From contig JAEUWB010000003.1 of assembly GCA_016786595.1 (NCBI GenBank), positions 62,001 through 126,000 on the forward strand: a stretch of 64,000 nucleotides of DNA, written 5' to 3'. Shown piece after piece: positions 9,126 through 52,425 of the stretch; positions within the stretch are counted from its first letter, which is position 1, and each line of letters starts with the position of its first letter. The DNA comes from a bacterium (lineage in GTDB: Bacteria > Bdellovibrionota_C > UBA2361 > SZUA-149 > JAEUWB01). A program made the translations under genes and the position numbers. The notes under the pieces were generated by a model, which had not been told where the DNA came from, searched no databases, and saw nothing but the letters and a program-made list of their open reading frames with translations.

Positions 9126-9494
9126 GTAGATTACTCGTTGCCAAAAGTTTTTTGGTTAACGAAACTTTCGTCAACGGGTAAGTATTTATTTTATCCAGTA
9201 AAATCAGTTGACTGGACGTTTAGACTGATTGCCCAGGCTACAGCTGAAGCAACAGCTATTTGGGCACTCAGTCTAAATGCTATTGTAATCATTAAAAATA
9301 ATAACCGCAACTTTAGGAACAAATGCTCCTGTGCATATTAGAGATACCTACCATTTGCCTAGGCATAAGAGCGCTTTATTTACTAATTGAGAATCTTTCC
9401 CAGAAAGGATAAATACATTGCTGAGTTTAATTGCTGCTAACGCATTGGCAAGTAATATTCTCAATGTCCAAATTTAATAGAAGGATACTTGATT
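9126..9494. promoter_or_regulatory. Divergent intergenic region between tmRNA and the secreted protein gene
   Basis: No supported gene. It must hold the tmRNA promoter (minus) and the promoter of the gene starting at 9495 (plus). A 9-bp inverted repeat, ATTGAGAAT at 9386-9394 and ATTCTCAAT at 9457-9465, flanks the probable promoter of the plus-strand gene and could be an operator. AGAAGGA just upstream of 9495 is a ribosome-binding site. Confidence 0.35.
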
Positions 9495-47999: not shown

Positions 48000-48420
48000 C
48001 CTTCACAATCACTCAGGATTTGCTGTTATTGCAACGCTTACGCCGAGGGCTCGGGTCGAAGGCAGGGTAGACCCCGCAATCTGTTAACTTGGTTATTCAT
48101 CGTCATTGCGAGGAACAACGTGACGAAGCAATTTGTTCACTTAGTAATTCATTGGTCATTGCGAACGCAGTGAAGCAATCTGTTCATTTAAAATGATAAA
48201 TATAATTTAGCGGTAAACAGATTGCCGCAGTCGAACAAACAAGTTTGTTCTCCTTCGCAATGACACGAAAAGCAAACAGATTGCCGCGCTTGCTATCGCA
48301 AGCTTGCAATGACCCAAGATGCAAGCAGCTCGCCATGCTTTTGCTGTTTAAATTTGCAACGACACGAAGCGTTAACAGATTGTTGCCCTTCGACTGCACG
48401 TTTGATTACAATAAACTCTG
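48000..48420. repeat. Cluster of CAATCTGTT-type intergenic repeats
   Basis: At least five partial copies in both orientations: GTCATTGCGA...GAAGCAAT.TGTTCA at about 48103 and 48154, inverted copies starting AAACAGATTGCCGC at about 48215 and 48275, and AACAGATTG at about 48373. Further members are at 30066 and 55660. No coding sequence. Such dispersed short repeats resemble REP/RPE-like families. Confidence 0.75.
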
Positions 48421-48590
48421 ATCGCGTAAATCTCCCGTTCTGACTTGTCCGTCATGTCTGCAAGGCCGCGTAGGAGCAGGAACTTGGCCAAGATCGGGGC
48501 TGAATCAGAAATTCCAGAGACCAAAGTCCGCACGATGACAAAATCCTTCATTTCTGTTAAACTAGTCGGATGTCGGCCGGCAGTTATGGC
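48421..48590. other. Intergenic stretch without recognised features
   Basis: Moderately GC-rich DNA between the repeat cluster and the first cassette. GTCGGCCGGCAG near 48572 contains a GGCCGGC-like palindrome. Nothing else identified. Confidence 0.3.
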
Positions 48591-48643
48591 CCGTTCTTTA
48601 CCATATTTCTATCTTGAGTAGTCCCATCAAGGAAATGGCTGCG
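48591..48643 (+). repeat. Cassette 5' box, copy 1
   Basis: CCGTTCTTT..CAT.TTTCT...GAGTAGTCCCATCAAG followed by five bases and GGCTGC. The same box occurs at 49958-50006. Its right half (TCCCATCAAG...GGCTGC) is an inverted copy of the 3' boxes at 49850 and 50500. Confidence 0.8.
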
Positions 48644-48690
48644 GTCATAACCTTATCAGGTTTTATCAAAATACTTGCTTTGATTTTAAA

Positions 48691-48732
48691 TTACGAAGTC
48701 GTCGAGGAGTATTCTTCTCGACGACTTCGTAA
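48691..48732 (+). promoter_or_regulatory. Long hairpin in the leader of the 330-aa cassette gene
   Basis: TTACGAAGTCGTCGAG (48691-48706) and CTCGACGACTTCGTAA (48717-48732) are perfect 16-bp arms; inner bases extend the stem to about 19 bp with a TATT loop. A second stem (CGCTTTC...GAAAGCG) follows before the ribosome-binding site TAGGAG. No T-run directly after, so it is more likely a leader structure than a terminator. Confidence 0.8.
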
Positions 48733-48797
48733 GGAGTCAAAGCACGCTTTCTAAAAGGAGAGGAAACTCTTCGAGGGGGAAAGCGTAGGAGATAATC

Positions 48798-49790
48798 ATG
48801 TCAATCGACCCAACTGGCGCAGTATTGGAGCGCCCTAACAATCAGGAAGTGCCGACGGATTCGGCACAACAACAAGGCAACGGAGGAGAAGTCGCGATGG
48901 AAGGATTCAGCCTCGAGGCGATGCTGGAGCAGCACGGGCATCTTGATGTTGCAAGCCTCGAAAAGGAGGTTGGTGCATTGGAGGAGGACATTCGTCGTGC
49001 CGTTCCTGCGATCACTCAAGAGATGATGAGGCGTCCTGCTGTTGCTGCAAATGTCAAAGGCCTCGAGAAAGCGCTCAAGGCTTACGATCAAGGAGAGCAT
49101 ACTAGGGAGACTCTTCTTAGTCTTCTTGGGCTTGGTAAATGGGCGATCAGAATCACGACCGATCCAAAAGCCGTGACCGAATCATCAGCGAACAGAAAGG
49201 GAAATCCGCGCAAAAGACCCGGGCACGGGAAGCACGGAGATCTTGGGCGAGTGTCAGCTCGGGCCAAAAGCCTTCGACCAGCAGTTGAAAAGCTTCTCAA
49301 AGACGTTCAGCTGAAAGATTCCGATCAAAGCCCGCGTGCACAAAAGATCAGAAAACTCAGAAGTCTTTGGGATTCGGGAAAATCGGGCCAGCACTGTGCC
49401 GAAACTCTCGAACTTGAGCAGTGGATGCTCAAGCACTTGAAGCCACCAAAGGGAGCGAGAGGCGTGCTTCTAAGTAACAAGGCTAAGAAGCCTGGCGGAA
49501 AAGACACGAAGCATCCTGGGCGTGAAGTTGAAGAAGCGCTCACGGGGCAAGACGAAGATGAGCCCTTGGATTTCAATCTCGAGCTGGCTTCCGAAGATCA
49601 GAAAACGGTATACGCCCAGGGCTTAGCCCTCAGAAAGGAAGGCGTGAACTCAGAAGATGCGGTTGCGGGATTTACAGCGGCTCTCACCGTTTGTGCTTCC
49701 GATTGCAACGCGGAGCTGCTGGCGGCATTTCGTGCTGGACTCGAAAAAGCACGACAAGGAGGTGGTTCTGAGCAAACCGTGACTGGTTAA
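48798..49790 (+). CDS. Orphan hydrophilic protein, cassette 1
   Basis: 330 aa with TAGGAG seven bases before ATG. Soluble, highly charged, no signal peptide or membrane segment. The N-terminal 35 residues are Gln/Asn/Gly-rich; then a helical region (LEAMLEQHGHLDVASLEKEVGALEEDIRRAVP...), a basic linker (NRKGNPRKRPGHGKHGDLGRVSARAKS), a second helical region with KIRKLRSLWDSGKSGQHCAETLELEQWML, and a C-terminal helical domain (EDQKTVYAQGLALRKEGVNSEDAVAGFTAAL...). No family recognised. Higher GC than the neighbours. It is bracketed by boxes shared with the next gene. Confidence 0.7.
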   Translation: MSIDPTGAVLERPNNQEVPTDSAQQQGNGGEVAMEGFSLEAMLEQHGHLDVASLEKEVGALEEDIRRAVPAITQEMMRRPAVAANVKGLEKALKAYDQGEHTRETLLSLLGLGKWAIRITTDPKAVTESSANRKGNPRKRPGHGKHGDLGRVSARAKSLRPAVEKLLKDVQLKDSDQSPRAQKIRKLRSLWDSGKSGQHCAETLELEQWMLKHLKPPKGARGVLLSNKAKKPGGKDTKHPGREVEEALTGQDEDEPLDFNLELASEDQKTVYAQGLALRKEGVNSEDAVAGFTAALTVCASDCNAELLAAFRAGLEKARQGGGSEQTVTG

Positions 49791-49827
49791 TCTCCTACTA
49801 CGGGTCTCCTACTCAGGTTCTCATGCG

Positions 49828-49870
49828 AACAGGTTTAGGAGGCCTGTGGCCACTTTCTTGATGGGATGAA
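49828..49870 (+). repeat. Cassette 3' box, copy 1
   Basis: AACAGGTTTAGGAG then a short GC-rich variable part and GCCACTTTCTTGATGGGATG. Same arrangement at 50480-50525. CTTGATGGGA is the inverse of TCCCATCAAG in the 5' boxes. Confidence 0.8.
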
Positions 49871-50140
49871 ATTAAGATAGTTTTCAATGTGTTTATGCAG
49901 TGTGACAATTTTGTTATGTTCTGCTAAAATCTGGCGCTTGTTAAGCGTTAACAAATGCCGTTCTTTGTCATTTCTTTATGAGTAGTCCCATCAAGTGATT
50001 GGCTGCAAGCTAATCCTAAAAAGGTTTTTTATTTCGTTTCTAATTTCCGTGAAGTCGAAAAGAGTTATGTTTCATAACGCACACGGCTCTTTTCGGCTCC
50101 ACTTGGAATCGAAATTAAACTCGGAGAAATCAACTATCAA
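49871..50140 (+). repeat. Inter-cassette region with 5' box copy 2 and leader hairpin
   Basis: Contains the palindrome TTGTTAA-GCG-TTAACAA (about 49939-49955), the second 5' box (49958-50006), and a long imperfect hairpin (CGAAAAGAG at about 50055 with CTCTTTTCG at about 50091, plus GTTATG-TTTC-ATAAC inside it). The leader therefore has the same order as in cassette 1: box, spacer, long hairpin, ATG. CGGAGAA upstream of ATG 50141 is a weak ribosome-binding site. Confidence 0.7.
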
Positions 50141-50431
50141 ATGACTCCACACAGAAGTGATTCGGAACTCGTCGGCGACGTTTATGGCTTTTTTAAGGCA
50201 AAGGGAATGGAAGTGGTGTGCACCGCTGAAGGGGGCAAGGTTTTCGTGAAGCCTAAAGAAGGCTCTCGAACTCACCGCAAAGCAGTTTTCGAAGCCCTGC
50301 GTGACCGATCCTGTTCGCAACATCCCATCTGGCCCGTCAAGGTCGCCAGAGGTGGAGAAAACGGCGTCGAACTTACTCGCAAAGCTAAACAGCAGCGAGC
50401 TGATGTTGATTCACGTACTAGGCGGCGCTGA
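50141..50431 (+). CDS. Orphan small basic protein, cassette 2
   Basis: 96 aa, MTPHRSDSELVGDVYGFFKAK..., ending in a very basic tail (ELTRKAKQQRADVDSRTRRR). No signal peptide. GDVYGFFKAKGMEVVCTAEGGKVFVKPKEGSRTHRKAVFEALRD could be a small alpha/beta domain; a nucleic-acid-binding role is possible from charge only. Unrelated in sequence to the 330-aa protein, yet it has the same flanks. Confidence 0.6.
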   Translation: MTPHRSDSELVGDVYGFFKAKGMEVVCTAEGGKVFVKPKEGSRTHRKAVFEALRDRSCSQHPIWPVKVARGGENGVELTRKAKQQRADVDSRTRRR

Positions 50432-50479
50432 GACCTAATCCCAACAGCTAGTTGCCGAGCTTACTGACAGGTTTATTCA

Positions 50480-50525
50480 AACAGGTTTAGGAGCTCGGCA
50501 GCCACTTTCTTGATGGGATGAAAAA
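50480..50525 (+). repeat. Cassette 3' box, copy 2
   Basis: AACAGGTTTAGGAG, GCTCGGCA, GCCACTTTCTTGATGGGATG, then AAAAA. Preceded by a stem GCCGAGC (about 50453) with GCTCGGC (about 50492), the counterpart of the CTCCT/AGGAG stem before copy 1. Confidence 0.8.
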
Positions 50526-50593: not shown

Positions 50594-50929
50594 TCATGTC
50601 CAGGCGTTGCTTTCGTCTGGATCTGTTGACGCGACTTTGATCTGTGCCGCCTGGATCTCAAAGTGAGTTCCTGGGCCGTTAATCTCGATACGAATGGTCA
50701 AGCCAGCGCACCAAGGCAACGGGAAGGAAACAGATCGCGGACAGCCGTTGCCGTCACTGAGCGTTTCTTCGAAAGGTTTTACGCTTTCGTTTTGAGCTGC
50801 AAGCGATGTCGGCACTTTGACGATGACCCGATTCCCGTCAACGAAGATCAACGCAACGTGCGAGCCTCCGACGGAAACCAGCGCCGCCTTACCTAGGGCG
50901 ATGCATTGTTGAGGTGTTTGATTTCCCAT
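50594..50929 (-). CDS. Possible small protein, function unknown
   Basis: 111 aa from ATG 50929 (GTG 50968 is an alternative); no clear ribosome-binding site. MGNQTPQQCIALGKAALVSVGGSHVALIFVDGNRVIVKVPTSL... has alternating hydrophobic residues suggesting a beta-rich fold (ALIFVDGNRVIVKVP, LTIRIEINGPGTHFEIQAAQIKVAS). No family recognised. GC-rich codons like the two cassette genes. The opposite strand also has an open frame, so coding is uncertain. Confidence 0.45.
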   Translation of the reverse strand: MGNQTPQQCIALGKAALVSVGGSHVALIFVDGNRVIVKVPTSLAAQNESVKPFEETLSDGNGCPRSVSFPLPWCAGLTIRIEINGPGTHFEIQAAQIKVASTDPDESNAWT

Positions 50930-50968
50930 GGGCGTAAAAACGCGAAAGACTCGCGCTCTTAAGTCCAC

Positions 50969-51278: not shown

Positions 51279-51503
51279 TTATTTCTTTAATCCTAACATT
51301 GATCGGGCTACGTCTTCTGAAGATACTGCGTAAGTGCCTTCTGCGAGCTCTTTCTTAATTCTTTCTACTTTACGAATTCTTTCTGCTAACCATTGTAATT
51401 TAAGCAGTGTTGCTTTACGTGGGCGCCTGACTTCAATGCCTTCACTGGAAACTGCATCTTCATTTGAGATTTCTAGTGCAATTTTTTCAACTGTGTTTTC
51501 CAT
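51279..51503 (-). CDS. flgM: FlgM-like anti-sigma factor
   Basis: 74 aa with GAGGG before the ATG. The C-terminal half RIRKVERIKKELAEGTYAVSSEDVARSMLG fits the FlgM sigma-28-binding motif (R-VE-IK--I--G-Y-V----VA--ML). The N-terminal half is acidic and probably disordered, as expected. FlgM holds sigma-28 (FliA) inactive until the flagellar hook is finished. No flagellar gene lies in the window, so it is an orphan here. Alternatively it is an unrelated small regulator. Confidence 0.6.
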   Translation of the reverse strand: MENTVEKIALEISNEDAVSSEGIEVRRPRKATLLKLQWLAERIRKVERIKKELAEGTYAVSSEDVARSMLGLKK

Positions 51504-51864: not shown

Positions 51865-52425
51865 ATGGACCATCAATATTACATCATCGACAGCCAGAAA
51901 TTTAATTCTGCACTTGAACGCGCTGGTTATGATTCTTTGTCGGAGCTAGCTTCAAGGATTGGCGTGCACCGCAACACGCTCCATCACTATCTATCCGGAA
52001 CATCAGTATTTCCTGATTCCTTAAATAAACTCTTTTTTGCCTTGGCAGTCGAACCAGAAGACATTATTGCGAAGCCAAAAAAACAATACACTCTGGAACT
52101 AGTTGTTCCGATCGTTGATGCCATACTAAAAAAATATCCAGAGTGTTGCCTAGTGCTGTTTGGGTCACGCGCACGAGGTGGTGCAAAGCAATTTTCTGAT
52201 TTTGATCTTGGTGTTTACTGTGAAAAAGGTTTGGCGCATGCAGACTATCGATGTTTAGTTGAGATTAAGGAGAAACTGTCTGAGGACCTGCCAATATTTA
52301 TTGATTTGGTGAATTTAAACAAAGCCGACGACAATTTCCTGAAAAGTATTGGGCCGGGCATGAAATTTTTAGGTGGACGTTTAAGTGATTGGTTGAAACT
52401 CCAAAGGAAGTGTCGGAGTAAATAA
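51865..52425 (+). CDS. HTH-fused minimal nucleotidyltransferase (MntA-like antitoxin)
   Basis: 186 aa. Residues about 8-60 are a helix-turn-helix of XRE type (ALERAGYDSLSELASRIGVHRNTLHHYLSG). Residues about 75-170 are a minimal nucleotidyltransferase: LVLFGSRARGGAKQFSDFDLGVY has GSxRxRG and the SDxDL metal-binding aspartates, plus a later Asp in IFIDLVNL. MNT proteins pair with HEPN toxins (MntA-HepT type), adding AMP to the toxin to silence it. A truncated HEPN-like partner follows at 52603, so the module is probably broken. Confidence 0.85.
   Translation: MDHQYYIIDSQKFNSALERAGYDSLSELASRIGVHRNTLHHYLSGTSVFPDSLNKLFFALAVEPEDIIAKPKKQYTLELVVPIVDAILKKYPECCLVLFGSRARGGAKQFSDFDLGVYCEKGLAHADYRCLVEIKEKLSEDLPIFIDLVNLNKADDNFLKSIGPGMKFLGGRLSDWLKLQRKCRSK

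Follow-up and report, generated by a model that had tools for sequence, protein, structure and literature searches.

Two unrelated genes in a shared frame

In this genome, two neighbouring orphan genes directly after lon are each enclosed by the same pair of short sequence boxes. What would two unrelated genes have in common that calls for such a frame: a means of moving, a set of expression signals, or a structure in their mRNAs? We addressed this within the window (the whole stretch of 64,000 nucleotides that was analysed) and by searches beyond it. The locus comprises two head-to-tail transcription units, 48535-49871 (unit 1) and 49902-50523 (unit 2). Both have a promoter of the sigma70 type together with a 5' and a 3' box, and the ORFs inside them, for proteins of 330 and 96 aa, are unrelated:

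48535..48563, plus strand: unit 1 promoter, ATGACA-17-TAAACT with TG before the -10
48591..48665, plus strand: unit 1 5' box, CCGTTCTTT ... TGAGTAGTCCCATCAAG ... TGGCTGC ... CCTTATCAGGTTTT
48798..49790, plus strand: ORF1, a 330-aa orphan, predicted to be mostly helical
49828..49871, plus strand: unit 1 3' box
49902..49930, plus strand: unit 2 promoter, GTGACA-17-TAAAAT with TG before the -10
49958..50029, plus strand: unit 2 5' box
50141..50431, plus strand: ORF2, a 96-aa orphan, basic (pI 10.2)
50480..50523, plus strand: unit 2 3' box

The initial annotation had described two units with common 5' and 3' boxes and a constant frame around different genes, and both descriptions hold: the ORFs are dissimilar, and the boxes share blocks of identical sequence. 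In a 90-column alignment, the 5' boxes are identical at 17 of 17 positions in TGAGTAGTCCCATCAAG, 9 of 9 in CCGTTCTTT and 7 of 7 in TGGCTGC, and they also share AGGTTTT. The 3' boxes (81 columns) are identical at 14 of 14 positions in AACAGGTTTAGGAG and 23 of 23 in GCCACTTTCTTGATGGGATGAAA. The promoters, one per unit, had not been noted before. Each is of the extended -10 type, and the spacing from promoter to 5' box is nearly equal in the two units (27 bp). Since the promoter scan as a whole performed at chance level, their evidential weight lies in these matching positions. The sequence common to both units extends 5' through the promoter, past the inverted repeats, which are internal and not the outer ends.

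Both ORFs look coding. Their codon-usage scores in frame were +0.115 (ORF1) and +0.08 (ORF2) bits per codon and were negative in all other frames, and the chance of such an open frame is about 2e-7 for ORF1 and 0.005 for ORF2. They had been called unrelated orphans, and we found neither similarity between the two proteins nor relatives of either in Pfam, PHROGs, NCBIfam, PADLOC, PDB sequences, IMG/VR or the 46 genomes of the phylum; ORF1 likewise had none among plasmids and phages, and ORF2 none among GTDB contigs. A few weak ORF2 matches within the phylum (E 0.02-0.09) look like noise. The structure model of ORF1 was of low confidence overall, although residues from about 39 to 121 were predicted with confidence, and a structure search with this low-confidence model returned nothing; ORF2 was not confidently folded. 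Both products are hydrophilic (GRAVY -0.67 for ORF1 and -0.84 for ORF2).

The box cores are complementary across each ORF

The 3' box was said to hold the inverse of the 5' box core, and it does. The inverted repeats around each gene are also present, at a length of 18-21 nt (86-90% complementary), slightly below the 24 bp that had been claimed. In the transcript, these cores would form an end-to-end stem, which we call P1:

48621..48642, plus strand: unit 1 P1 5' arm, GTCCCATCAAGGAAATGGCTGC, pair probability 0.97-1.0
49849-49867, within the unit 1 3' box: 3' arm of P1
49985..50006, plus strand: unit 2 P1 5' arm, GTCCCATCAAGTGATTGGCTGC
50498-50519, within the unit 2 3' box: 3' arm of P1

In unit 1, P1 has a stretch of 14 bp and another of 5-7 bp; in unit 2 the corresponding lengths are 11 and 7 bp. 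The duplexes are worth about -36 and -33 kcal/mol, respectively, and the arms of P1 are exchangeable between the units. In full-length folds its pair probability was 0.97-1.0 for unit 1 and 0.5-0.92 for unit 2. It also formed when the ORFs were codon-shuffled (30 of 30 folds for unit 1 and 25 of 30 for unit 2).

How unusual is this complementarity? For a single unit only moderately so: 4 of 600 unmatched 5'/3' flank pairs (about 0.7%) scored as high, and the whole-duplex energy of the 5' and 3' flanks did not separate the units from other genes. What seems noteworthy is that the segments conserved by both units are exactly the complementary ones. P1 is invariant between the two sequences, and so its sequence is silent for or against pairing.

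Leader and trailer hairpins differ in sequence and are predicted to fold

Besides P1, each unit has a leader hairpin (P3) and a trailer hairpin (P5), which, like P1, lie entirely outside the ORFs:

48676..48744, plus strand: unit 1 leader hairpin P3, -45 kcal/mol
48745..48784, plus strand: unit 1 second leader hairpin P4, counterpart absent from unit 2
49798..49849, plus strand: unit 1 hairpin P5, conserved apical part GUUC...GAACAGGUUUAGGAG
50031..50115, plus strand: unit 2 leader hairpin P3, -32 kcal/mol, sequence differs from unit 1
50451..50502, plus strand: unit 2 hairpin P5, conserved apical part GUUU...AAACAGGUUUAGGAG

The long leader hairpin reported earlier for each unit is real: compared with shuffled sequences, P3 had z scores of -9.2 (unit 1) and -6.1 (unit 2). 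A "short stem" before the 3' box had been reported as well; a stem does exist there, and is in fact an 11-14-bp hairpin, P5, that takes in the first half of the 3' box (z score of -5.8 in both units). In both boxes, most of what is conserved is paired or apical.

The arms of these hairpins fit their own unit. P3 arms paired at -44.5 and -24.0 kcal/mol within units 1 and 2 compared with -17.3 and -15.3 kcal/mol when swapped, and P5 arms at -17.8 and -21.4 compared with -12.1 and -4.8 kcal/mol. Between the P5 hairpins, in what is one comparison of only two sequences, both partners differ in four pairs and one partner in three, and all are still standard pairs. The changes sit beneath the conserved apical part CAGGUUY...RAACAGGUUUAGGAG. 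Because P3 and P5 differ in sequence and yet fold, the shared frame appears to be maintained as RNA (or single-strand) structure. Where P1 and P5 meet, the terminal base pairs of both draw on the same few bases, so one helix may grow there at the expense of the other. A local switch within the 5' region alone found no support, since this region by itself folded no better than shuffles.

Start-site masking is predicted for unit 1

We noticed a further complementarity in unit 1, between the start and the end of its gene:

48785..48803, plus strand: unit 1 Shine-Dalgarno and start region, GTAGGAGATAATCATGTCA, complementary to 49780-49798
49780..49798, plus strand: unit 1 stop/3'UTR segment, TGACTGGTTAATCTCCTAC, with anti-Shine-Dalgarno ATCTCCTAC

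The two segments are 79% complementary over 19 nt that span the Shine-Dalgarno sequence, the start codon and the stop codon. At -23.7 kcal/mol, this pairing was the strongest of the 170 genes tested on the contig; 0.2% of random pairs were as strong, and none of 169 other 3' ends matched the ORF1 start region equally well. The same test gave an ordinary value for unit 2 (-8.8), where the GGAG is instead predicted in a weak local stem with a CTCC just inside ORF2. Hence, the predicted masking of the ribosome-binding site by the 3' end, which we noticed post hoc, belongs to unit 1; being absent from unit 2, it is not part of the shared frame.

A predicted end-to-end clamp and its main rival

How might these elements work together? 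In the reading that we prefer, to which we give about an even chance, the locus arose by duplication of an accessory transcription unit. A conserved long-distance clamp would hold the two ends of its mRNA together, and its coding part would have been replaced or would have diverged beyond recognition. The 5' box core would pair with the 3' box core in the transcript, and P1 would then close a multi-helix domain with P3 and P5, from which the ORF is looped out and left free for translation. Such a clamp could control mRNA life or translation, as in the aapA, hok and icaR mRNAs, and a nuclease or an RNA-binding protein may dock on P3 and P5. The 3' end of unit 1 would additionally cover the Shine-Dalgarno sequence and start codon, keeping the full-length mRNA silent until that end is trimmed or displaced. 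As to its origin, a single duplication of the frame was probably followed by exchange of the ORF, or by divergence that left it unrecognizable, with the RNA frame retained.

Perhaps the frame is just an ordinary expression module that was duplicated once, made up of a promoter plus a leader and a trailer that are both structured, the trailer acting as a processing or termination signal, with no end-to-end mechanism? Such a module would account for there being only two adjacent copies. Leaders and trailers often form stable hairpins; taken by itself, a unit's 5'-3' complementarity is, as noted, only mildly unusual; and further orphan genes follow in the downstream part of the island. However, the complementary segments are the most conserved ones, whereas similarity has dropped to background in leader, ORF and spacer. 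Moreover, neither 3' box is followed by a T-rich tract (a U-tract in the RNA), so the 3' box is not a simple intrinsic terminator. "A promoter/terminator pair duplicated once", which the initial annotation had named as the ordinary alternative, is too weak a description because two hairpins outside the ORF have kept their fold while their sequence changed. We consider a duplicated expression module with incidental structure a serious rival to the clamp, albeit on the unlikely side.

The boxes were found in one genome

Are the boxes part of a wider system? The initial annotation had suggested so, had proposed a genome search, and had named boxes found only here as an outcome that would speak against it. 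Searched against the 2.6-Mb genome, each box model matched exactly its two copies (E of about 1e-20 to 1e-23), with no third significant copy; the boxes were found only here, as two adjacent copies, which argues against a system. Weak model matches in the same genome (contig C6, E 0.07-0.08) fell in the leader of a DUF420-like gene and in coding sequence that lacks a 3' box. Nothing credible turned up in the remaining 45 genomes of the phylum; a weak 3'-box match in one of them (G038) is internal to a sugar-kinase-like gene.

When about 85,000 GTDB species were scanned for the exact patterns, 51 matches came up; most were chance matches or lay in fabI-like coding sequence (GPIKTLAA codons), and an inverse box lay near none of the 51. 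Pattern searches with the 5' box can mislead, since its core, TCCCATCAAG-N4-TGGCTGC, coincides with common fabI-like codons for GPIKTLAA (for example at the GTDB scan loci L028, L029 and L060). In IMG/VR, pattern and BLAST scans returned nothing beyond chance matches, and plasmid and phage records held no boxes. As far as could be searched, the box frame is confined to one genome.

Are the units mobile cassettes?

The units open a lineage-specific stretch at a synteny break. The order dnaJ-lpoA-lon is kept in six relatives (in some together with dnaK), and, within the stretches retrieved from these relatives, no gene from downstream of lon here turned up behind their lon. A cluster of REP-like short repeats (CATTGCGA... 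/ AACAGATTGC) occupies 48070-48400, right after lon, and a comparable cluster occurs at about 4040-4170 of L091. Downstream, a further orphan ORF of 124 aa without a box (50594-50968, minus strand) faces unit 2, and a long hairpin, GGGAGGTT...AACCTCCC, lies between the 3' ends of the two. Beyond these are a 74-aa ORF (51279-51503, minus strand) with a weak match to the FlgM C terminus (E 2.7e-6, below the curated cut-off) and, at 51865-52425, an HTH-nucleotidyltransferase gene; the latter is followed, to 52800, by an apparent broken substrate-binding partner with stop-interrupted frames, the whole resembling a pair of the MNT/HEPN type.

Unrelated orphan genes flanked by inverted repeats, at a synteny break right after lon, could be non-autonomous mobile cassettes moved in trans by an integron, IS/MITE or Y1-type enzyme, and the genome offers candidates for such an enzyme. 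No integrase had been seen in the window, and there is none; an intact integron integrase is, nonetheless, encoded on another contig (C60:89579-90520, 419.5 bits against a cut-off of 265), adjoined by a cassette array. Six Y1-type transposase genes lie elsewhere in the genome. The array itself is large (about 1400-12000 of L196, with the integrase at L195/L196); it has attC-type sites of the form TAACAA...CGTTA and carries methyltransferase-like and many unknown genes, in a phylum that is poorly sampled.

The units themselves did not bear this out. As had been claimed of a classic attC, no attC-like site was found in either unit by a relaxed pattern scan, which recovers clear array sites (2189-2280 and 9259-9351) and misses others; the sole attC candidate in the region, 49949-50067, has 6-12 bridging pairs compared with 28-30 in the clear array sites. 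The attC-type sites of the array are unlike the boxes, and no box occurs in the sampled part of the array. An origin as insertion-sequence ends was rejected as well: target-site duplications at the tested boundaries were 3-4 nt at best, as at 44-89% of random boundaries. Y1-type genes are present, but the boxes are not shared with them, which led us to reject a Y1/RAYT origin. Transposons and MITEs exist in multiple copies; here there are two adjacent copies only, with no third in the same genome, in other genomes or in the mobile-element collections searched, and the shared sequence passes the inverted repeats through the promoter. Because there is no target-site duplication and no attC-like site, because the inverted repeats are internal, and because the array and the Y1 genes lack boxes, we do not file the units as integron cassettes or transposons. 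With two box copies only, the cassette or regulon reading of the initial annotation is left unsupported, and we consider mobile cassettes improbable.

A long shot is that the frame is an exchangeable one, a 5'/3' scaffold that combines promoter, clamp and a pair of covarying hairpins and in which unrelated genes replace one another, so that the frame and not the protein is inherited. Least probable of all is a structured functional RNA that hosts an ORF for a protein partner, in the manner of group I/II introns or HEARO/omega RNAs: the closing stem, multiple hairpins, looped-out ORF and strongly basic ORF2 would fit, but neither ORF has a nuclease or reverse transcriptase domain, there are no copies in other genomes, unlike what is expected of mobile RNAs, and Rfam covariance models run against the region at E up to 1 gave one meaningless microRNA match and none to introns, HEARO or riboswitches. 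A tRNA- or tmRNA-like origin was also considered, and none was found.

Comparison with mRNAs whose ends pair

We return to the clamp. Complementary 5' and 3' UTR segments that are predicted to pair in the full-length RNA, as found here, are the mark of an mRNA with a 5'-3' long-distance interaction. In the aapA and hok mRNAs, such an interaction, with an anti-Shine-Dalgarno sequence, acts on translation and decay (PMC6733600). Both units resemble aapA/IsoA and hok in that the mRNA ends are predicted to pair across the ORF, and unit 1 does so further in that a 3' anti-Shine-Dalgarno would cover the start site; unit 2 has no 3' anti-Shine-Dalgarno. Type I toxins are short hydrophobic peptides with an antisense RNA. 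The ORFs here, at 330 and 96 aa, are hydrophilic, and no antisense promoter is matched in both units, one chance-level minus-strand promoter being present in unit 1 only.

The icaR mRNA of Staphylococcus aureus pairs its 5'-UTR with its 3'-UTR through an anti-Shine-Dalgarno in the 3'UTR and is a target of RNase III (PMC3868564). Here too, UTR pairing would surround normal-sized protein genes, and the long duplexes could attract RNase III. Whereas icaR is a single gene with its anti-Shine-Dalgarno in the 3'UTR, the frame here is common to two unrelated genes and, unlike the icaR element, sits upstream of the ribosome-binding site.

Two other systems share single traits. The leader-trailer stems of pre-rRNA, known as RNase III stalks, pair over more than 1 kb; the likeness lies in leader-trailer pairing, but the looped-out part here is a protein-coding ORF. 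Integron cassettes likewise place orphan genes in a constant frame, and an integron with an intact intI is in the genome; the units, however, lack attC, have their own promoters, lie on another contig and do not share boxes with the sampled array.

The units would work like a long-distance-paired mRNA, a predicted function that establishes no membership in a named family. They are real, look selected and are unusual in having one RNA frame around two unrelated genes, but they amount to two copies in one genome. Whether they are paralogous accessory transcription units that share this frame, and not a gene, seems to us evenly poised. If the clamp is real, two genes without protein similarity keep a common mRNA structure at both ends, and 5'-3' mRNA pairing would be a transferable regulatory frame and not the property of one gene. 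Inverted repeats that flank orphan genes can, as a warning, be RNA signals and not the ends of mobile elements. The boxes would then provide a sequence handle for further cases in under-sampled phyla.
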